Origin: Methanolobus psychrotolerans
GTDB lineage: Archaea; Halobacteriota; Methanosarcinia; Methanosarcinales; Methanosarcinaceae
Length of the DNA stretch: 64,000 nucleotides
Reading direction: 5' to 3'
Assembly: GCF_002243045.1 (NCBI RefSeq)
Contig: NZ_MBKP01000010.1
Location: 62,001-126,000 of the forward strand
The position numbers and the translations under genes are program-made. Within the stretch, counting starts at the first letter, position 1, and each line of letters starts with the position of its first letter. Under the pieces are notes generated by a model. That model was not told where the DNA came from. It did not search any database and saw nothing but the letters and a program-made list of their open reading frames with translations. This document shows positions 30,655-56,542 of the stretch, piece by piece.

Positions 30655-32268
30655 ATGGCATTATTCATTGAAGTCAAAAACCTGACACTTGAATTTGATG
30701 GTGTCAAAGTTCTCAAAGATATAAACCTGACAATCAACGAAGGAGAAGTTCTTGGTATCCTTGGAAGAAGCGGTTCCGGTAAAACAGTATTGATGCACGT
30801 CCTGCGTGGTGTTGAAGAGTATGAAGGTATTAGTGGAGAGGTTATCTATCACCTCGCAAGATGCGAAAAATGCGGGCATATAGAACCTCCATGCAAGGTA
30901 GGGAACGAATGCTCTGCCTGTGGTAAGGATACCCTCAAGTCCTTTGAAGCAGATTTCATAAAGCTTCCGCTTCATGACCCTGCAAGACGCGAGATAACCA
31001 AAAGGATCGCTATCATGCTCCAGCGTACATTTGCTCTATATGGTGATGACAGGGTCATTACAAATGTCGTAAACTCTCTCACAGAGATTGGTGTAAATAA
31101 CGAGGCTGCCCTGCCCCGTGCTGTGGAGCTCCTGGAAAAGGTACAGCTCTCGCATCGTATGATGCACGTTGCCCGTGACCTAAGTGGCGGTGAGAAACAG
31201 AGGGTGGTTCTTGCCAGGCAACTTGTAAGGGATCCAATGCTTCTTATTGCCGATGAACCAACCGGTACGCTTGACCCCAGGACTGCAGATGTAGTCCACG
31301 ATGTTATTGCAAAGGCAGTCAAAGACTACAATATGACAATGGTCATTACTTCACACTGGTCTGAGGTAGTTGAAGACCTTGCTGATAAGGCTATCATTCT
31401 TGAAGACGGGGCAATTGTAAAGGAAGGTTCCCCATCAGAAGTTGCAAAAGAATTCATGCAGCTTATCTGTTCTGTGGAAAAGAAATGTGATGTCGTTGTC
31501 GGTGACCCATTGATCAAGGTAGATAACCTTGTAAAAAAGTACATATCAGTGAGCCGAGGTGTCGTTTACGCTGTAAATGATGTTTCATTTGACGTAAAGG
31601 AAGGTGAGATCTTCGGTCTTGCAGGTACCAGCGGTGCAGGAAAGACCACAACTTCTGAAGCTCTCATGGGTATTGTACAGCCAACAAGCGGTGAGATACA
31701 GGTGCGTGTCGGAGATGAATGGGTAGACATGAAAAAACCAGGTCCAGAATGCAGGGGACGTGCAGTCAAGTACATGGGCATACTGCATCAGGAATATGGA
31801 CTATATACTCACAGGACGATCATTGACAATCTTACCGAATCAATAGGAATTGATCTTCCTTATGAGCTTGCTGTGAGAAAGGCAATCAATACCTTGATGG
31901 CCACCGGATTCACTGAAGAAAAGGCAAAATCTATATTATCAAAGATGTCAGATGAGATTAGTGAAGGTGAAAGGCACAGGGTTGCATTGGCTCAGATATT
32001 GATAAAGGAACCAAATATCATTATAATGGATGAACCAACGGGAACAATGGACCCATTCACTAAGAAAGAGGTCACAAAGTCTATTCTGGAAGCACGTGAG
32101 AAGATGGGTGACACTTTTGTCATCGTATCACATGACATGGACTTCCTAGAAGAGATATGTGATCGCGTAGCTCTTATGAGAAACGGTAAAATAGTTAGTA
32201 TAGGGGCTCCTGCTGCTGTCCTGTCACAACTTACTGAAGAAGAACGCATGGAAGCGGCGGAACCATAA
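30655..32268 (+). CDS. atwA: Methyl-coenzyme M reductase activation component A2 (double ABC ATPase)
   Basis: A 537-residue ATPase that powers reductive activation of MCR. It has two ABC nucleotide-binding domains in one chain: Walker A GRSGSGKT at 37-44, signature LSGGEKQR and Walker B LLIADEPTGT, then a second set with GTSGAGKT near 324, ISEGERHR and IIIMDEPTGT. A cysteine-rich insert (CEKCG at 70-74, then C80 and CSAC at 86-89) lies in the first domain, probably metal-binding. No membrane segments. GGAGG precedes the ATG by seven bases. It leads an operon of marker genes that supply the activation complex. Confidence 0.95.
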   Translation: MALFIEVKNLTLEFDGVKVLKDINLTINEGEVLGILGRSGSGKTVLMHVLRGVEEYEGISGEVIYHLARCEKCGHIEPPCKVGNECSACGKDTLKSFEADFIKLPLHDPARREITKRIAIMLQRTFALYGDDRVITNVVNSLTEIGVNNEAALPRAVELLEKVQLSHRMMHVARDLSGGEKQRVVLARQLVRDPMLLIADEPTGTLDPRTADVVHDVIAKAVKDYNMTMVITSHWSEVVEDLADKAIILEDGAIVKEGSPSEVAKEFMQLICSVEKKCDVVVGDPLIKVDNLVKKYISVSRGVVYAVNDVSFDVKEGEIFGLAGTSGAGKTTTSEALMGIVQPTSGEIQVRVGDEWVDMKKPGPECRGRAVKYMGILHQEYGLYTHRTIIDNLTESIGIDLPYELAVRKAINTLMATGFTEEKAKSILSKMSDEISEGERHRVALAQILIKEPNIIIMDEPTGTMDPFTKKEVTKSILEAREKMGDTFVIVSHDMDFLEEICDRVALMRNGKIVSIGAPAAVLSQLTEEERMEAAEP

Positions 32269-32298
32269 TATTCTAAAAAGGTTACGGAGGAGTTTGAC

Positions 32299-33846
32299 AC
32301 GAGTGGCGAAATAACAGTAGAGGTCAACGGACAGGAACTGAAATTACCAGAAAGTTCAACCCTTGAGGACGCCATCAGGGTGTCAAACGCACCTTACAGG
32401 AAAGGGACATCAATTGGGATTCTCATTGAAAAAAGTGACCTGAAGTCACAGGCCTTTGTTGAATACCTTGTGAAAACATCCAAAGGTGAGTTCAAGATAG
32501 AACTTCTGAATGACTCTTCCCCTTCTTCAAAAAAATGGATATCTATTTTTAAAGACTTTACTGATATACCTGTCCGCTGGACCAGTAAAGATGCTCTTGC
32601 GTTTGGCCCGTTCAACACTGATCTGGAGCCTGTACGCGGCAGCACTGATATGGACAGGTTTACTTTGCTTTTCGGTGCAGGTGGTGGTGATGCCGCAAAT
32701 ACCCATATCATTCTCAGTAAGACTAAACATGCTTCAGAATATGGTGCACCTGAAGAGGGTGTATTCGCACGGGTCATAAGCGGCAAGCATGTTCTCCCGG
32801 ATCTTGTCAGGAGTGACAGGATCTTGTCAGTAGAACCTGTAGTTGAATGGGAAAAGACAGGAGAACACATTTGTACTACTGACCTTTCGGTCAAACTTGA
32901 GGATGGTTCAAAGATATTCACATATGTTGAAATTGAGATAGACCCTCTGGCTCCTGAAGGTGCAGAGTTCTTCTTTGCTGTTACCAGAGATGGCACTTTC
33001 AACATTGATTTTGTTTCAAGTTCTTTTATATCTGATCATCGTTTCCAGGGTGAGCTGGTAACGTACGAGAATTTTGAATCCAGATCAAAAGGTGCTGTTT
33101 TTGTCCGGACTGTAGGGTACGGTGCAGGAAAGCTATATATTTCCACAGATGACCGCACCTCCTCTATCATGCACTCTGTTATAGGTCATGTCATAAAAGG
33201 CATTGAACTTTCTAGAATGGCAGAGAGTGGCCAGAAGATAATGGTAGAATCCATTCCCGATCCTATCATGTTGCTAGGCATGGCCAATGCAGATGCCCAA
33301 AAGGAAATGGAAGCTCTTGGTATTGAAGTCATCAGGGAAGGCCATACTGAAGATGACGGTTTTATAGTCAAGCAAACGCCTGCAACAACAATTGAAATCA
33401 TACATGAAGGGAAAGTCACCGTTCAAGGGGTAGACCCGGAGAAGCTTGTGACTATCAAGCTTTATAATGATCTTGCTCCCAAGACACTTGACTTCTTCAG
33501 GCATGCCGTAGGCCTCCAGTATAATCCGGTTGGTGTACTCCCTATAATGATGACTTATGAGAATACATATATTTTCAAGGCAGAGAAGCCGGCTGAAAAA
33601 TATAAGGAGATCTTCCCGGAAAACACTCCGATAAAGACCTTTGCCGGTGAGATCGGTGTCACGAACCAGGCTGCAAAGAGAGCTGGTATGATAGGTGTCA
33701 AGACAACAGATGACGATCTTTTCGGGCCAACCGGGGAAAGGTTTGCGAACACTAATATTGTCGGTAAAATACTCGAAATTGATAAACTCAAACATTTCAA
33801 GGATGGAGATGTCATATATATCTTAGAGGGCAGCAGGGAGGAATGA
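32299..33846 (+). CDS. mmp3: Methanogenesis marker protein 3 with non-canonical ACG start
   Basis: A 515-residue methanogenesis marker 3, part of the MCR activation machinery. The N-terminus is a ubiquitin/ThiS-like strand pattern (GEITVEVNGQELKLPESST). The C-terminal third resembles cyclophilin-like folds (VTIKLYNDLAPKTLDFF). The frame between the atwA stop and GTG 32380 clearly codes but has no ATG/GTG/TTG. A strong GGAGGAG (32286-32292) sits six bases before ACG at 32299, which I take as start. GTG 32380 would remove the first domain. It is in the same frame as atwA, 30 bases downstream, and overlaps mmp6. Confidence 0.9.
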   Translation, partial: TSGEITVEVNGQELKLPESSTLEDAIRVSNAPYRKGTSIGILIEKSDLKSQAFVEYLVKTSKGEFKIELLNDSSPSSKKWISIFKDFTDIPVRWTSKDALAFGPFNTDLEPVRGSTDMDRFTLLFGAGGGDAANTHIILSKTKHASEYGAPEEGVFARVISGKHVLPDLVRSDRILSVEPVVEWEKTGEHICTTDLSVKLEDGSKIFTYVEIEIDPLAPEGAEFFFAVTRDGTFNIDFVSSSFISDHRFQGELVTYENFESRSKGAVFVRTVGYGAGKLYISTDDRTSSIMHSVIGHVIKGIELSRMAESGQKIMVESIPDPIMLLGMANADAQKEMEALGIEVIREGHTEDDGFIVKQTPATTIEIIHEGKVTVQGVDPEKLVTIKLYNDLAPKTLDFFRHAVGLQYNPVGVLPIMMTYENTYIFKAEKPAEKYKEIFPENTPIKTFAGEIGVTNQAAKRAGMIGVKTTDDDLFGPTGERFANTNIVGKILEIDKLKHFKDGDVIYILEGSREE

Positions 33847-33848
33847 AT

Positions 33849-34283
33849 ATGGCTGAAGGAACTGAAGATGTCATAACAAAACTTGTAGTTACAAGTTCGG
33901 ATAGTGTGTTGCCCATTGATGCTGCTATGAAGATATATGAATCTAATACTAATATCGTCATAAAAGAAACTTGTTTTGGCACCATGGTCACAGGTCCCAG
34001 GGATGCTGTGGACAAAGTGGTAAAAGAGGTTGTGGACCTTGATAAGAATCACATATTTGTAAAAGAGAGAGGTTTCCCTCCGGGAGATGAAAGACGCTGC
34101 CGTGCCTCCCGTGGTGGCGGGGCAAGGCCTGGATTTTATTTTCTCAAGGAAGAGTCAATGATGCTCCCTATGATCGGCAAAGCACTTGACAAATATGATC
34201 GGAAAGTCCCTCTCAAAGAAACAGAACATAAGAAAAGGCTTGAAGTAAAAGATCTTCAGGATATAATCGAATCCACCTTATGA
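33849..34283 (+). CDS. mmp6: Methanogenesis marker protein 6
   Basis: A 144-residue methanogen-specific protein. Distinctive segments are TKLVVTSSDS near the N-terminus, KETCFGTMVTG, and the proline/arginine-rich ERGFPPGDERRCRA, followed by a glycine-rich GGGARPGF. ATG 33849 is favoured because GGAGG (33837-33841) lies seven bases before it; ATG 33843, overlapping the mmp3 stop, is too close. Its exact function is unknown, but conserved linkage with atwA and mmp3 points to MCR maturation or activation. Confidence 0.9.
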   Translation: MAEGTEDVITKLVVTSSDSVLPIDAAMKIYESNTNIVIKETCFGTMVTGPRDAVDKVVKEVVDLDKNHIFVKERGFPPGDERRCRASRGGGARPGFYFLKEESMMLPMIGKALDKYDRKVPLKETEHKKRLEVKDLQDIIESTL

Positions 34284-34292
34284 GGCAATACA

Positions 34293-34754
34293 ATGGCAAA
34301 AGTTATCATATACCCTACAAACAGCCTAATCCTTTCTGACCTGGTCCAGAGGTTTGGCCACACACCCCTTGCAATGATGGAAAAGATCAAGGAAAAGATA
34401 TCAACTGTTGGTGTAGATTCCCCGCCACTTAACATCACCGCAGAAGAACCAAAGCATGGACTGAAGTATGCGGCTGTGGAGGTTCCGGCAGGTGTCAGGG
34501 GCAGGATGGCGATCGTAGGGCCCATGATAGAACAGGCAGATGCGGGTATAATTGTTGGTGAGTCCCCTCTTGCATTTGGTTGTATGGGATGTGCCCGCAC
34601 CAACGAGCTTACAAAGTTTCTCATAAGGAACCGTGATATACCTCTCCTTGAACTTGATTTTCCGAAAGCAGATGATGAGGGACAGGAATTTGTGTACCGG
34701 ATAGCTGAGTTTTTGAAATCATTGCCGCAGAAGAGTGAGGAGGCAACAGAATGA
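34293..34754 (+). CDS. mmp5: Methanogenesis marker protein 5
   Basis: A 153-residue methanogen-specific protein starting [15 protein letters not shown], with a conserved cysteine pair in [16 protein letters not shown] (about residues 95-100) that could hold a metal or cluster. The overall look is an alpha/beta protein. GAGG precedes the ATG at 34293. The stop overlaps the ATG of the next gene (ATGA), indicating coupled translation. Its role is inferred from operon context with MCR activation genes. Confidence 0.9.
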
Positions 34755-35992
34755 ATGATGAAGCTGTCGTAAAAGTGGCACTGGTGTCATGTGGTTCCGA
34801 GTATGCAGGTGTTCACGGTGAACTTGATTCAGTTGCAGCTAGCGTCAATGCTAAACTCATATACCCTGAGATAGATGTCAATGTCCTTGACACAATCGGA
34901 AAGGATTTTGGCATAGAGGCCGCAAGTCCTGATCTTCGCCTTATGATGGCAAGGGCCATGGCTGTTGTGGCAGGTATTTCGGATGTGGATGGTGTATTCA
35001 TAACTTCATGTTTCAGATGTGCTGAGGCGGCTATAGTCAGGAACGAAGTTCGTCGCTACATAAACAAGCACTCTGATCTTCCAGTTATAAGTTATTCTTT
35101 TACGGAGCGTACAACGGCGGCAACCCTATTGACGCGTATGGAAGCTCTAACTACTATCGCAAGGCGCAGACATCTTCTTGCAAGGGAGAAGCAAAGCGGA
35201 CTTACTGCAGGCATTGACTCCGGCTCCACAACCACAAAGGCAGTCATCATGAAGGACAACAAGATATTAGGTTCTGGTTGGGTGCCTACGATAAAGGTTA
35301 TTGACAGTGCAACAGAAGCTTTCAATCAAGCGCTTGAAGAAGCTGGTGTCAAACAGGAAGACATCCAGGCGATAGGTACCACAGGATATGGTCGTTTCCT
35401 TGTAGGGGAACATTTCAAAGCCAAACTCATCCAGGAAGAGATCACTGTAAATTCAAAGGGTGCAGTCTATCTTGCGGGTAAACAGAAAGGATCTGCAACA
35501 GTTATTGATATAGGTGGAATGGATAACAAGGCTATATCTGTGGAAGACGGTATTCCGGGAATGTTCACCATGGGTGGTATTTGTGCAGGTGCTTCAGGTC
35601 GTTTCCTCGATATGACTGCAAAAAGGCTTGGTGTGGATATCACTGAACTTGGTGCCCTTGCGGTGAAGGGTATGCAGGAAAAAGTTGATATGAACAGTTA
35701 TTGTATCGTTTTCGGTATCCAGTCACTTGTAAACTCCCTTGCCAAGGGTTCAACGCCTGAGGATGTTGCTGCAGCTGCATGTCACAGTGTGGTGGAGCAG
35801 ATATTCGAACAGCAGCTCCAGGAAGTTGATGTAAAGGAACCATTGATCCTTGTAGGCGGTTCCTCTCTGATCGAAGGTGTTCCAAAGGCCCTTGGCGAAT
35901 TGCTTAAGATAAATGTCCTTGTTCCTCCCAACTCTCATTTGATAGGTGCTGTTGGAAGTGCTTTGTTGGCATCAGGATTTGTGGAGGAGTAA
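34751..35992 (+). CDS. mmp15: Methanogenesis marker protein 15 (BadF/BcrA-type ASKHA ATPase)
   Basis: A 413-residue ATPase of the ASKHA fold, related to activators of 2-hydroxyacyl-CoA dehydratases. The nucleotide motifs [14 protein letters not shown] near residue 153 and [18 protein letters not shown], are visible. The cluster-type segment [14 protein letters not shown] holds the conserved cysteine, and the C-terminus has LVGGSSL. The first 150 residues are an extra domain with [12 protein letters not shown]. By analogy it may use ATP to drive low-potential electron transfer from an iron-sulfur cluster, which would suit Ni(I)-F430 formation. Biochemical proof is lacking as far as I know. Confidence 0.92.
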
Positions 35993-35997
35993 ATCTT

Positions 35998-36594
35998 ATG
36001 GAAGCTCTTGAGACTTTCATTGTAGAGTCCACTGTTCAGGAGGAAGGTGAGGCATACAGAAGCATAGTCTCTGACATCATTACCGAGCTGATACTTGGTG
36101 GTGCTATCGGACGGATAAAAGTTGTAGTAAGGCCGGAAGATTCCCTTTTCCAGATGGCAATTATTCTAAGAGGCAGCCAGCCAATGGTGAAACTGTCCGA
36201 TATTGGCAGTGTTGAGACCGGCAATATAGTTAAAAAAGAAGTAAAGATCTCGATAACGGAGGAAAAATATCTTTCAGAGCTTCTTGAACTGCTCTGGGCA
36301 AGATATGGGCGCACAAAGGTCTTCCAGCCTGAGAGAAATACACTGATCATCAATGCTGAAGATACAGATAGTGATATCAAGTTCCTTAAGGATATGGTGG
36401 TTGCAGACCCTCGCAGAACCCTTCAGTCAAGACTGGTGGAAATGGCTATAAGGGCCACACCCGAAGGGTTCAGGGTGCGCTACCATTCAATGGATAGCCA
36501 TAAGTTCGTCTTCGTAGCAAGTGAGGATCCTCTTAAACCGGAATGGATACAGGAAGCACACCAGATGGTTACAGAACTCATGGAGGAGAAATAA
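35998..36594 (+). CDS. mmp17: Methanogenesis marker protein 17
   Basis: A 198-residue methanogen-specific protein found with Mmp7 and Mmp3 in MCR activation preparations. It begins METFIV-like after EALETFIVES, with the conserved RIKVVVRPED, QMAIILRG and WARYGRTKVFQPERNTL segments. It is rich in short strands, with no cysteine cluster visible. It lies five bases after mmp15 and its TAA overlaps the ATG of mmp7 by one base. Confidence 0.9.
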   Translation: MEALETFIVESTVQEEGEAYRSIVSDIITELILGGAIGRIKVVVRPEDSLFQMAIILRGSQPMVKLSDIGSVETGNIVKKEVKISITEEKYLSELLELLWARYGRTKVFQPERNTLIINAEDTDSDIKFLKDMVVADPRRTLQSRLVEMAIRATPEGFRVRYHSMDSHKFVFVASEDPLKPEWIQEAHQMVTELMEEK

Positions 36595-37532
36595 TGGCAG
36601 CGATATTGGAGCCATACATCTACGAGGGTGGTATTCACAAACATTCTCTTATTACAGAACTCCTGGAGGACCTTGGTGGATACCTTATACAGAAAGTACC
36701 TGCTGCAACAGAAGTCACACTTGTCATGCTGATCCCCCGGGATGATGTTCATCTTATCGAAGAGCTGGGAAAAAAACTCCTTGGTAAACTCACCCGTGCT
36801 CCGCTTACTGGTACCGAGATTGCCGTTGTTTCTCCCACACTTGCTTCTCACCATCTTCCGCATTCTGCCTGCGATATCGCAGAATTTATGCGCAGGGGGG
36901 GTGCGAATACAAATATGATAGGCCTTGCAAGAGGTATGGGCAGAAGAGTTTCCCTTTCTGACAACTACGAAAGGAAGCTTATCAATGAACATGATTTCGC
37001 ATTATTTTCCTTTGGTACCTTCAGTGATTGCATCAAGAACAAGAAGCCAAAACTGCTTGAGGGCATAACTATTCCTAAGATCGTGACAGGTGGACCTTGC
37101 AACCTTAAAACCGAGGATGTTGCAAATGCTGACCTGTATGTTGGTAATATTGGAAGGGTTGCCCATCGTCTGAGGAAAAGTGATGAACTCGGTGCACTTG
37201 ATGTCCTGTTGGAGAAGGTCGTGGAGGTAGTTGAGAAGATGCGTGAAGATATTGCAAAGGATCCCCTTGCTGTACTGCCTGCAAGGGTCATGAAAGAGAT
37301 CCACGAGCAGATACCGGATATCTTCAATGTGCTTTCGCCTGCTCCCGTCACACTTCAGCTTGATGGATTGCGTGTAAAGCTCCCATACGGAGAGTTCCAT
37401 AAAAAGGTTGAGAATCTTGAGTTCGATGAGGGATTAAAGCTGTCTGATATGGCGGTCATCACTCCTTCTAAAATGAAAAATTATATATTGGTCAAGATCA
37501 AACGTGAATCTGAGGTTGGATTTACCGCCTGA
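36594..37532 (+). CDS. mmp7: Methanogenesis marker protein 7
   Basis: A 312-residue methanogen-specific protein. It starts AAILEPYIYEGGI and has conserved SPTLASHHLPHSACDIAEF, RRGGANTNMIGLARGMG and VTGGPCNL segments. A few cysteines (SACD, FSDCIK, GGPC) could act as cluster ligands. Homologues copurify with MCR, McrC, Mmp3, Mmp17 and A2 during reductive activation. ATG 36594 overlaps the mmp17 stop (TAATG). The frame is open further upstream but that part overlaps mmp17. Confidence 0.92.
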   Translation: MAAILEPYIYEGGIHKHSLITELLEDLGGYLIQKVPAATEVTLVMLIPRDDVHLIEELGKKLLGKLTRAPLTGTEIAVVSPTLASHHLPHSACDIAEFMRRGGANTNMIGLARGMGRRVSLSDNYERKLINEHDFALFSFGTFSDCIKNKKPKLLEGITIPKIVTGGPCNLKTEDVANADLYVGNIGRVAHRLRKSDELGALDVLLEKVVEVVEKMREDIAKDPLAVLPARVMKEIHEQIPDIFNVLSPAPVTLQLDGLRVKLPYGEFHKKVENLEFDEGLKLSDMAVITPSKMKNYILVKIKRESEVGFTA

Positions 37533-52225: not shown

Positions 52226-55200
52226 TCATGTTGTCAGTCTTTTATACAACAATGGCAATGTCTCAGGTAGCATAAGCGCATCATCTATTATCGTGTATCC
52301 AACGTCGGAAAATATATTCTCAAGGTACTCTCCCGGATTCCTGTCAACAGTTATACAGAAGAAATGCATCCCACGTTTTTTTCCCTCGCCGATGGCCACT
52401 TTTGTATCTTCCTGTGCGAGGTCACCCTGATAGGAATCTTCTCCTTTAGACCTGTCATAAGGCTCTCCATCGGAGAGCAGCACCAATAGCTTTGTCCTTG
52501 CACCTGCTTGCTCCAGCTTCTTTATGGAATGACGGATAGCAGGTCCCAGGCGAGTATTTGATGCAGGCTCAAGAATACTTATCCTGCGTGCCACATTATC
52601 TGAGAGTTTTTCATCGAATTCTTTTATTACAAAATACTCCACGTCTTCGCGGCTCTTTCCTGAAAATGCGTATATGGCGTACTTGTCCCCGATGCTCTCA
52701 AGCGCCTGGCTCATTATGATCAGTGCATCTTTTTCTACATCCAGTATGCTTCTGCCATCAGTTCCAAGTATCTTGCGTGTGGAGGCACTGACATCCATGA
52801 GGAAAAGCGTTGCAACATCTCTATCGTGTTTATCCCATCTGAGATACAGTCCTTCATCGGGGTTGATGCCGCATCTTTTAGCGATAAGTGAGTCTATGAA
52901 AGCATCGATGTCAATTTCCGTTCCATCGTTCTGTTCTTTCATTCGGCGGAAGGCTTCAGGTTTCATAAGGCTGAAAGTGTGTTTCAGGAGCGATATTTCA
53001 TTGCCGTAGCGTTCCATCGCCTTATTATAGTAGGATGTGGAGCCTCCTACAGGTTCTATTTCATTGACTGTGCTCCAGTCAGACCTGTAGTCATTTATGA
53101 AGGTGTCCCACTCATCATATTTGTAACTTCCAAGCACTCTCCAGTTATTATCCAGTGCATGGGTGGGTTTATCGGTAGCCTTTTCTTTAGGTCTTTCTTC
53201 CTGTGCAGTGAGATCTGCCTCGGTTTCGGGGATGAAATTCTTTATTATATTCTCATAAGGCTTTGTCATCAGCGGGTCCTTAGAACCAGTGGCACCGATA
53301 TCCATCCCACGATAGCCTATATTTTTTAACATTTTGTATTCTATAAGTTCAAGAGGTCCAAACTTTTCTTCAAGCATGGCGTATATTTCAAAAGCGGTTT
53401 CAAGAGCCGAAAATGTTCCTGAATCGTCCCTGAAGACTGTATCTGTAAGGAGCTCCTGTGTTTTGTCCAGTATCTCTCCGGCAACTTCACTTATCTTAAA
53501 AGCAGGTTCATGTCCGGTGGATACCCACAGGAATGCTTCCATAAACTCCTCAATTCCACTCCCTGGCGCAGGTCTCATTAAAAGCATTTTATGCCGGATC
53601 TCTTCAAGATCTAAGCGCACTCCTTTGTAATGGTCCATAATCATGTACTCGACACGTGCGTCTTCCAGTACACCCATTATGGTTGCAGCCAGTGTCTGAT
53701 TGGGGAAAAGTGATAGTATATCGATGATACCGGCAGGCAATTTATCACGCTTGTCCTGTGAACACATGTCTTCATGGTTTTGATGAGGATACTTCCTGCT
53801 GATCTTATCCGTAAATGCAGCAGCCTTTTCGGGAGGTATATCCATCGAACTGAACCGTACATGTCCGACCTCATGCATAACACTGAGTTTGTATATCTTG
53901 AAATTGTCCTCAGTATCCTCATAAAGTCTCATTTTAGGTGCAAGGTAGAGGGTATTGCCTGCTATTATGGGGTTCGTGTCCTGTGCTTCTTCCTGAAGCG
54001 GTAATGTTGCCATGGAACGTATGACAAAACTCGTGCCTGAAAGTCCCAGGGCATAGTATCTCAGTATATTTGCCACTTTCTTAAGAGCAATCGAGCCGGT
54101 GAGCTCTTCTATGAATTCATTGGAACTTTTCGATTCAAGCGAGAAATATGCCTTTGCGACAGGTGCTTTTCTATCAGTGTTATCCAGTCCTTTCAAAGCC
54201 CACTCTTCCAGATCGCTTATGTCCAGTTTTTCCAGTATTGCCGGGGAATGTGAAAAGAAATCAATTGCCAGTTTTCTATCCTTCTCATACACCTTCAGCC
54301 CGATATCTGCCCACTTTGCTGTATTTTCAGGTTTTGTGTTATCGGCAAAAAGACTGAGATTCTTAAAGAATACTCCTGCAAGAGCCCCCTCCTTTCCGAG
54401 GAGCATATTTGCTATCTTGAATATCTCTTCATGGTATGCTGGGGATATTTTGCTCAAAGCCCGGATGGAACTGGTGTAATAATCAGAGGCTAAAGCAGGA
54501 TCTTGTATTGCGATCCCCTCTCCTGTGGCAACCCATTCTTCAAACATTTCTATTGTGAGCAGGCTGTATGCCTCAGAAGCATTCTCAAAATAGCTTTCAA
54601 CACATCCGGGCTGAATATCTGAGAGCTGAATGCCTCTGTCGGTCAGTATTGATCTGATATTCCGGTCTGAGTTTTTCAGGTGATCTCCAAGCGCAAAGCT
54701 CCCATGAATGAAAGCCCGGAGTGCATTTTTGTTATTTGAGAATGAGGATATACTTTTATTCTTCCATTCTTCAATTTCATTCAGTTCAAGCTTGCCCAGA
54801 TACTTTGGAACTGTATTTAAAAATGATTTTGCACTTTCATTATCTGTATTTGCAAGGTCTTTTACAATATTCAGGAGAAAGACAAAATCCTGTTCATTGG
54901 TCTTTTCCATTATTTTTCCTGCATTTCTGAACAATTCCATTGCAGGCGTTTCCCCGAGTTCCAGGAGATTATCAACTGAAGCAAGGAGTTCTCCTCTCCT
55001 GTGTGGTTTGATCGCGGACAGTGTTTTTTCTGTCAGGCTTATGAGTTCTATTGCAGTTAGCCAGTGGCTTTTGCTGATGTGTTCTGTGAGATCGCAGAAT
55101 AAACTGAAATTTTCAGATGTTAGCAGGGACCGGAGTTGCATCAGATGTTCAAAATAAGCTTCTGCTACCTTGATATTGACATTTCCAAGTTCTCGTCCTT

Positions 55201-55705
55201 TTGTCACAAGTTCCTGGAACCTGTCTTCTCCTGTGGATACGATCACCTGTCCGGTGTGTTTGAAATAGGCTATTGCCATCCATTTGTTCTGTTCTGAGAG
55301 GGCTATGCCTGTGTTAGTCCAGTTCTCAAGAAGCTGGAAGCTGCCTTTTTCGATGAGTGGTAATGATGAGTCAAAGAATCCTTCACAACAGGAGACACTC
55401 AGTACTGAGATATTCTTTGCAAGGGTGAGCCAGTTATCAAATTGATCTTTTCCTATGGACTTGTAGACCCCGGGAGCGGCGCCAAGATAAGCTATGAGTA
55501 CTCGCATACCACGCCGAAGGGCTCCTTTTCCTGCGTGGAGCACTGCTTCTAGCTCTTCATCATTTAAACCTTCAAAGCCTGCTGCCAATCTGTAAATTTC
55601 AGGATGGTCGACGGAACTGTCCAGTTTTGGAAAATAGGATGTTATCAGTTCGCTTATCTCTTCTATGTTTGCAGGCCTTTGTCTGTTTCTGTCTTCTGCC
55701 GGCGT
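52226..55705 (-). CDS. Giant vWA protein (NorD/CbbO-like) with helical repeats and HExxH
   Basis: About 1159 residues. Residues 1-540 are degenerate helical repeats of 35-40 residues with recurring W-x-x-x-G and AxxYF patterns. A middle domain has MHEVGHVRFSS and VLEDARVEY, the HExxH and E/D pattern of NorD proteins. The C-terminal von Willebrand A domain begins LFLMDVSAST near residue 967 (MIDAS DxSxS). It partners the MoxR ATPase just upstream, as NorQ/NorD and CbbQ/CbbO do when activating metalloenzymes. The region 55589-55711 reads as protein but has no ATG/GTG/TTG. I place the start at ACG 55705 (GGAG nine bases before); ATA 55711 or TTG 55588 are alternatives. Confidence 0.8.
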   Translation of the reverse strand, partial: TPAEDRNRQRPANIEEISELITSYFPKLDSSVDHPEIYRLAAGFEGLNDEELEAVLHAGKGALRRGMRVLIAYLGAAPGVYKSIGKDQFDNWLTLAKNISVLSVSCCEGFFDSSLPLIEKGSFQLLENWTNTGIALSEQNKWMAIAYFKHTGQVIVSTGEDRFQELVTKGRELGNVNIKVAEAYFEHLMQLRSLLTSENFSLFCDLTEHISKSHWLTAIELISLTEKTLSAIKPHRRGELLASVDNLLELGETPAMELFRNAGKIMEKTNEQDFVFLLNIVKDLANTDNESAKSFLNTVPKYLGKLELNEIEEWKNKSISSFSNNKNALRAFIHGSFALGDHLKNSDRNIRSILTDRGIQLSDIQPGCVESYFENASEAYSLLTIEMFEEWVATGEGIAIQDPALASDYYTSSIRALSKISPAYHEEIFKIANMLLGKEGALAGVFFKNLSLFADNTKPENTAKWADIGLKVYEKDRKLAIDFFSHSPAILEKLDISDLEEWALKGLDNTDRKAPVAKAYFSLESKSSNEFIEELTGSIALKKVANILRYYALGLSGTSFVIRSMATLPLQEEAQDTNPIIAGNTLYLAPKMRLYEDTEDNFKIYKLSVMHEVGHVRFSSMDIPPEKAAAFTDKISRKYPHQNHEDMCSQDKRDKLPAGIIDILSLFPNQTLAATIMGVLEDARVEYMIMDHYKGVRLDLEEIRHKMLLMRPAPGSGIEEFMEAFLWVSTGHEPAFKISEVAGEILDKTQELLTDTVFRDDSGTFSALETAFEIYAMLEEKFGPLELIEYKMLKNIGYRGMDIGATGSKDPLMTKPYENIIKNFIPETEADLTAQEERPKEKATDKPTHALDNNWRVLGSYKYDEWDTFINDYRSDWSTVNEIEPVGGSTSYYNKAMERYGNEISLLKHTFSLMKPEAFRRMKEQNDGTEIDIDAFIDSLIAKRCGINPDEGLYLRWDKHDRDVATLFLMDVSASTRKILGTDGRSILDVEKDALIIMSQALESIGDKYAIYAFSGKSREDVEYFVIKEFDEKLSDNVARRISILEPASNTRLGPAIRHSIKKLEQAGARTKLLVLLSDGEPYDRSKGEDSYQGDLAQEDTKVAIGEGKKRGMHFFCITVDRNPGEYLENIFSDVGYTIIDDALMLPETLPLLYKRLTT

Positions 55706-55711
55706 ATGTAT

Positions 55712-56542
55712 TCACTCCATTATGGCGGCAATTATCTCATCAATGCTTTTCTGAAGGTCAGGATTGTCTGTTATGGGTTTTGCCATGGCTATGCTGCATG
55801 CTTCTTTCGGGTCTATGCCCTCATGGATGAGCTTGCCAGCGTAGATCAGCAGGCGGGTACTGACCCCTTCTTCAAGGCCGTGGTGTTTGAAATTCCTGAT
55901 ACTCTTTCCAATTTCAACGAGCTTGCCTGCAGTTGTCTCATCCACATGGCTCTCATGGGCAACGATCTGTTTTTCCAGTTCTGCCGGCGGGTAATCAAAA
56001 TCAATGGCAACGAATCGCTGTCTTGTGCTTTGTTTCATGTCTTTGATAATGCTCTGGTAACCTGGGTTATATGAAACAGCTAGCATGAACTCATCAGGTG
56101 CCCTGACTATTATTCCGAGCTTATCGATAGGGATTATGCGCCTGTCATCGGTAAGTGGATGTATGACCACTATGGTATCCTTCCTGGCTTCCACCACCTC
56201 GTCAAGATAGCAGATAGCTCCGCTTTTTACGGCTTTTGTGAGAGGTCCGTCACTCCACTCCACGTTGTCTCCTTTTATCAGGAAACGCCCCACAAGGTCT
56301 GTAGCAGTTAGATCCTCATGGCAGGCAATAGTTATCAAAGGGCGTTGTAATTTGTAGGCCATATACTCCACGAATCGTGTTTTTCCGCAACCTGTGGGGC
56401 CTTTCAGGTTTACCGGCAGCAGGTTCCTGTAAGCGGCTGTAAATATCTCGACCTCGTTACCTACAGGTACGTAGTAAGGTTCTTCCCTGATCAGATATTC
56501 ATCAACAGGCAGCTCCTCGGATAAAGCACATTTTGTTGCCAT
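55712..56542 (-). CDS. MoxR/CbbQ-type AAA+ ATPase
   Basis: A 276-residue AAA+ ATPase. Walker A is [10 protein letters not shown] near residue 45, Walker [11 protein letters not shown], sensor 1 in LAVSYNPGY, and the C-terminal lid with [11 protein letters not shown]. It belongs to the CbbQ/NirQ/NorQ group of MoxR proteins, hexameric motors that act with a vWA partner to insert cofactors or remodel enzymes. Its TGA is followed at once by the partner gene in the same frame, so the two are co-translated. The target enzyme is unknown; nothing for nitric oxide or Rubisco is nearby. Confidence 0.9.

Follow-up and report, generated by a model that had tools for sequence, protein, structure and literature searches.

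Where does translation of mmp3 begin in Methanolobus psychrotolerans, given that its reading frame opens without a usual start codon? The gene lies in an operon ordered atwA, mmp3, mmp6, mmp5, mmp15, mmp17, and mmp7 within the window, the 64,000-nucleotide stretch of DNA analyzed here (Table 1). A first-pass annotation, made from the letters alone, had identified the gene as mmp3, had placed it in the MCR activation operon, and had proposed that it starts at an ACG codon after a strong Shine-Dalgarno site. The identification is borne out by a match to TIGR03268 that lies above the curated cut-off and covers model positions 1-503 of 503, while a Pfam search yielded no match for Mmp3. The protein is also related to 8s7v chain J (E 3.7e-79), the solved Mmp3 of M. 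maripaludis, which is found in the MCR activation complex with A2, Mmp7, Mmp17, and McrC (PMC12176620). Residue 12 of this chain aligns with query residue 19, indicating that M. maripaludis Mmp3 likewise extends N-terminally beyond the aligned region. Structure prediction for Mmp3 from 13 sequences gave a mean pLDDT of 31, which is too low to bear on the N terminus, a stretch that the first-pass annotation had read as ubiquitin/ThiS-like.

Table 1. Coordinates of mmp3, its putative initiation signals, and the neighboring genes (window numbering).
Feature	Position	Strand	Basis or remark
atwA (component A2), gene 5′ of mmp3	30655..32268	+	TIGR03269, 870 bits (cut-off 517)
Second in-frame ACG, position -15	32284..32286	+	Overlaps the Shine-Dalgarno site, without a site of its own; in 15/26 Methanolobus
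Shine-Dalgarno site of mmp3, GGAGGAG	32286..32292	+	Sequence; GAGG 7-9 nt before ACG in 73/73 ACG genomes
Proposed mmp3 start codon, ACG	32299..32301	+	Sequence and family comparison
mmp3, proposed coding region of 515 codons and a stop	32299..33846	+	TIGR03268, 580.7 bits (cut-off 234.45)
GTG, codon 28 from ACG; first canonical start-like codon in frame	32380..32382	+	Rejected as sole start
mmp6, gene 3′ of mmp3, ATG start (control)	33849..34283	+	TIGR03272
mmp5, ATG in window (control)	34293..34754	+	TIGR03271
mmp15, ATG (control)	34751..35992	+	TIGR03286
mmp17, ATG (control)	35998..36594	+	TIGR03291
mmp7, ATG 36594 with GGAGG at 7 nt	36594..37532	+	TIGR03274

In the window, atwA begins at ATG with GGAGG at 7 nt and ends at TAA 32266-32268. 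The stop is followed by 17 bases, the GGAGGAG site, the six bases TTTGAC, and ACG 32299, which stands 8 nt from GGAGG; the position and the six-base distance given in the first-pass annotation are thus confirmed, as is its statement that no usual start codon precedes GTG 32380, since the frame contains no ATG, GTG, or TTG between the end of atwA and codon 28. Between ACG and GTG 32380 the frame encodes TSGEITVEVNGQELKLPESSTLEDAIR. The bare pattern GGAGG-N8-ACG occurs twice in the window against 0.67 expected matches, so it is not rare and proves nothing by itself; the evidence lies in its conservation. Two short overlapping frames at the site (TTG 32294 and GTG 32303) were considered and dropped, as inspection by eye found that they are not kept in genus g7.

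The comparison of this codon in related genomes, which had been proposed as a check, was run across Methanosarcinaceae, where 111 genomes were searched, 109 had an mmp3 match, and the start could be read in 108; G071, which holds only a C-terminal mmp3 fragment, was left out of the start survey. The aligned start codon is ACG in 73 genomes, CTG in 11, GTG in 7, ATG in 6, and unclear in 5, and in a further 6 of the 108, all of genus g8, ACG lies three codons downstream at the same Shine-Dalgarno spacing. ACG is thus common to most of the family. By genus, it is found in 25 of 26 genomes of Methanolobus (g1, the genus of the window genome; ATG in the other one), 30/30 of g7, 4/4 of g11, 2/2 each of g2 and g5, the one genome of g24, six genomes of g4 (ATG in one), one of g23 (one unreadable), and, at the aligned codon itself, two of g8. 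CTG is found throughout g3, which includes Methanococcoides (11/11), and GTG throughout g25 (6/6), while g9 has ATG in two genomes, g10 has ATG in two, GTG in one, and GCG with an ATG just upstream in one, and g6 has an unclear start in three. Among named species, mmp3 of Methanolobus bombayensis, Methanolobus profundi, and Methanolobus vulcani has ACG at the start, and that of Methanococcoides vulcani, Methanococcoides seepicolus, and Methanococcoides alaskense has CTG; a set of 12 named loci, overlapping the 108 genomes, divides into seven with ACG (Methanolobus and one unclassified Methanosarcinaceae MAG) and five with CTG (Methanococcoides). The sole Methanolobus locus with an ATG start (L016, genome G020) also carries ATG at -15, where 15 of the 26 have ACG.

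This distribution bears on two explanations in which the initiation codon would in fact be AUG. A sequencing or assembly error could account for ACG at one locus, as a single C-to-T change gives ATG and the window genome is in 106 contigs, but it is refuted by the presence of ACG in 25 of 26 Methanolobus and all 30 g7 genomes, with many single-contig assemblies, and hardly any credence is left to it. Alternatively, the ACG could be edited to AUG in the mRNA, and editing of this kind is real at plastid start codons (PMC9845219). However, the alternatives found in relatives are CTG and GTG, neither of which could be converted to AUG by C-to-U editing. We know of no case of C-to-U editing of archaeal mRNA, and editing is regarded as highly improbable.

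The distance between the Shine-Dalgarno site and the codon is conserved as well. From GAGG to ACG it is 8 nt in 59 of the 73 ACG genomes, 7 nt in 8, and 9 nt in 6, so that a non-AUG codon is kept across the clade at a nearly fixed distance, close to that of the ATG starts of the operon (for atwA, GGAGG plus 6-8 nt in 14 of 15 family representatives). Codon usage also sets the position apart. Of 25 aligned Methanolobus mmp3 genes, 24 have ACG as codon 1 and one has ATG, whereas each of the other 20 conserved Thr columns contains more than one codon; elsewhere in these genes, ACG makes up 111 of 875 Thr codons (12.7%). The same constancy is weak evidence in g7, as the 5′ end of mmp3 is so highly conserved there that codon 1 is just one of 6 columns, out of 29 conserved ones, with a single codon. 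ATG in 6 of the 108 genomes shows that ACG is dispensable, which counts against a strict requirement for it.

The stretch that follows ACG behaves as coding sequence. Across the 25 Methanolobus genes, codon positions 1, 2, and 3 vary in 14, 12, and 25 of the 26 columns of codons 2-27 and in 21, 18, and 32 of the 33 columns of codons 28-60; the stretch thus varies by codon position like the rest of the gene, which argues that it is translated. This speaks directly to a start at GTG 32380, which the first-pass annotation had named as one outcome that would overturn its proposal and which would make the preceding sequence leader RNA. That GTG is the first canonical in-frame codon in the window, and 24 of 25 Methanolobus loci have NTG in this column, but such a start is contradicted by the constraint on codons 2-27, by the TIGR03268 match, which begins at residue 7, and by the other family genera tallied, in which codon 28 is not NTG (GTT, GCA, GCT, and similar). 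GTG 32380 is therefore rejected as the sole start, a role that is very unlikely for it, though it may still act as a minor internal start.

Initiation further upstream, at GTG -9, at ATG, GTG, or TTG -15, or at ACG -15, would make ACG 32299 an internal Thr codon. Such codons are frequent: an in-frame GTG at -9, inside the Shine-Dalgarno GAGGTG, is present in 30/30 g7 and 9 of 26 Methanolobus genomes, ATG or GTG at -15 in 11/11 g3, 4/4 g11, and 2/2 g2, and ACG at -15 in 15 of 26 Methanolobus. However, no one position is common to all lineages, and in 19 of the 73 ACG genomes (14 g1, 2 g4, 1 g5, and 2 g8) the frame from the preceding stop to ACG is free of ATG, GTG, and TTG. The upstream codons also coincide with part of the Shine-Dalgarno site and have no such site to themselves, and fixation as ACG in Methanolobus is not what an internal Thr codon would show. 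Because they lack their own site and no single position serves every lineage, the upstream GTG and ATG codons are read as probable by-products of a purine-rich site held at a fixed distance, a reading less settled for g7, and upstream initiation is considered improbable overall. ACG 32299 is very probably the start codon of mmp3.

Outside the family, the phylum survey returned 50 genomes with a match and loci for 30 of them, of which 9 belong to Methanosarcinaceae and the other 21 were read. A Shine-Dalgarno-led ACG was found at none of these 21 mmp3 loci, whose starts are apparently ATG, GTG, or TTG; in the order-mates G037, G042, G046, and G050 the start reads as GTG. In a five-gene tree of 17 taxa, some splits of which are weak, ACG occurs on both sides of the basal split of Methanosarcinaceae, and CTG and GTG are nested inside. 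The ACG start is therefore very likely old, and the family appears, from this distribution, to have kept a weak mmp3 start since its common ancestor.

The neighboring genes served as controls. Across 15 family representatives, no ACG start was found in atwA, mmp6, mmp5, mmp15, or mmp17, all of which use ATG, TTG, or GTG. ATG is found at the start of atwA in 15/15, within six codons for mmp6 in 14/15, within four codons for mmp15 in 13/15, and at the start of mmp17 in 13/15, the remaining two having TTG or GTG. The start of mmp5 is TTG in 11 of 15 and ATG in 4, and this steady TTG is a milder example of a kept weak start in the same operon. For mmp17, too, the open frame extends well upstream, but the aligned ATG is shared and the additional part overlaps mmp15. 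The listed start of the mmp7 open reading frame (36543) overlaps mmp17, and the Shine-Dalgarno-led ATG at 36594 is the likelier start candidate for mmp7. An ACG start of atwA after GGAGG at one locus of an order-mate (L151, genome G037) was set aside as an isolated case, since it was seen only there and five family-mates of G037 (G040, G044, G048, G052, and G056) have ATG.

Within the window, mmp3 is alone among 36 genes with orthologs in genomes G002 and G004 in combining a conserved N terminus with the lack of a canonical start in all three genomes. The first-pass annotation had counted it as the second example of its kind in the window, which is not supported. The only other candidate found, perhaps the case meant, is the minus-strand gene at 52229-55714, whose frame opens after TGA near 55714 and first reaches an ATG, GTG, or TTG at codon 42. 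At this start G002 and G004 carry a GTG in frame, and the window carries one more base than G004, which puts the GTG out of frame; this is probably a one-base indel and not a conserved weak start.

In the window, 30 nt separate the atwA stop from ACG 32299 and both genes share a frame, so that readthrough of the stop could in principle give an AtwA-Mmp3 fusion. The in-frame gap of 30 nt is found in G000, G002, and G011, but it is 29 nt in 13 other Methanolobus genomes and 28 nt in one, where the frame is lost, and readthrough can be given very little weight. Coupling of mmp3 to atwA translation is a weaker proposition than the start assignment. Termination-reinitiation in Haloferax and Escherichia coli is reported for stop-to-start distances of -8 to +10 nt (PMC10666635), a range for which the 30 nt of the window is too long. 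The gaps of g7 and g11 are mostly 48-52 nt, and at their loci (L091, L103, L099, and others) a CACCTC close behind the atwA stop might base-pair with GAGGTG, the Shine-Dalgarno sequence of mmp3; the pairing arm reads CCCCTC in 3 of 4 g11 genomes. Folding z-scores were -2.7, -5.0, -1.6, and -4.4 for four g7/g11 sequences, -2.2 for one g3 sequence, and -0.8 for one g25 sequence; in the window no stable stem pairing the Shine-Dalgarno site was found (z +1.35). The putative g7/g11 hairpin pairs in 96.3% of cells against 26-56% for slid versions, but RNAalifold found no covariation for it across 34 sequences, no pair has both sides changed, and four of the six outer pairs are invariant. It is treated as a lead only.

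We infer from sequence comparison, with a probability of about 0.8, that mmp3 is translated from ACG 32299, inefficiently, that the weak start is ancestral to Methanosarcinaceae, and that it likely limits or adjusts Mmp3 synthesis. On the proposed mechanism, the helix at the strong Shine-Dalgarno site 8 nt upstream would position the 30S subunit at ACG, where the initiator tRNA would pair at two of three bases with a mismatch at the second, and slow, inefficient initiation would be expected. Since archaeal aIF1 favors the rejection of wrong codon-tRNA pairs (PMC7531240), initiation at ACG should indeed be slow; an E. coli reporter study placed ACG among codons working at 0.1-1.5% of the ATG level, a value from a bacterium that can serve only as a guide (PMC6925171). 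Lineages would shift from ACG to CTG (as in Methanococcoides) or GTG and rarely to ATG. Among 61,358 reconstructed AUG starts, switches to GUG (363), UUG (113), CUG (2), and AUU (1) have been counted, in a tally that covers these codons and AUG and from which ACG is absent (PMC5622118). Against a background that so favors AUG, the long retention of ACG and its replacement mainly by weak codons suggest selection against a strong mmp3 start, with simple inheritance as the alternative. It is reasonable to suppose that the weak start would hold Mmp3, a subunit of MCR activation, low relative to its operon neighbors or responsive to initiation conditions. The idea of the first-pass annotation that low-efficiency initiation sets protein ratios in the MCR activation operon is plausible, and the lasting non-ATG codons at the mmp3 start fit it. 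In a further extension, an ancestral ACG would be held by selection as a brake on a subunit of MCR activation, drifting among ACG, CTG, and GTG and seldom to ATG, and the anti-Shine-Dalgarno hairpin of the lineage that includes g7 and g11 would act as an additional brake, one that ribosomes completing atwA could release; this extension is tentative and placed slightly short of even odds.

The mmp3 start is very likely a case of weak non-AUG initiation, a known phenomenon. What sets it apart is the codon used, the degree of conservation, and the position of the gene in methane metabolism. Bacterial infC, which starts at AUU, encodes the discriminating factor IF3 and is autoregulated. Both infC and mmp3 are prokaryotic genes with weak, conserved non-AUG starts, although infC makes an initiation factor, whereas Mmp3 is not one, its codon is ACG, and its host is an archaeon. 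In AAV, ACG is a true weak initiator of the capsid protein VP2 and sets protein ratios; the use of ACG is common to both systems, but VP2 depends on eukaryotic scanning with a downstream AUG, whereas initiation at mmp3 would be directed by a Shine-Dalgarno site. Chloroplast genes such as psbC keep a weak start across a lineage in the same way, and their conserved non-AUG (GUG) starts have been argued to tune protein supply (PMC9845219); they differ in using GUG rather than ACG, in an organelle where editing can turn an ACG start into AUG. In M. mazei, ATG is the start in 79% of longer genes (PMC11456600). Archaeal GTG and TTG starts resemble the mmp3 ACG in pairing an alternative codon with a Shine-Dalgarno site, but the ACG is mismatched at the middle base.

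No earlier report of an mmp3 ACG start was found among the matches listed in searches of open-access papers. Gene-finding programs for prokaryotes as a rule accept ATG, GTG, and TTG as starts, and the 5′ end of mmp3 is thus probably misannotated across Methanosarcinaceae, the family to which the principal genetic models of methanogenesis belong. The product of mmp3 is part of the complex that switches on the enzyme responsible for almost all methane of biological origin. If the reading is true, the long-conserved ACG would show that start-codon discrimination serves archaea as a lasting setting of gene expression.
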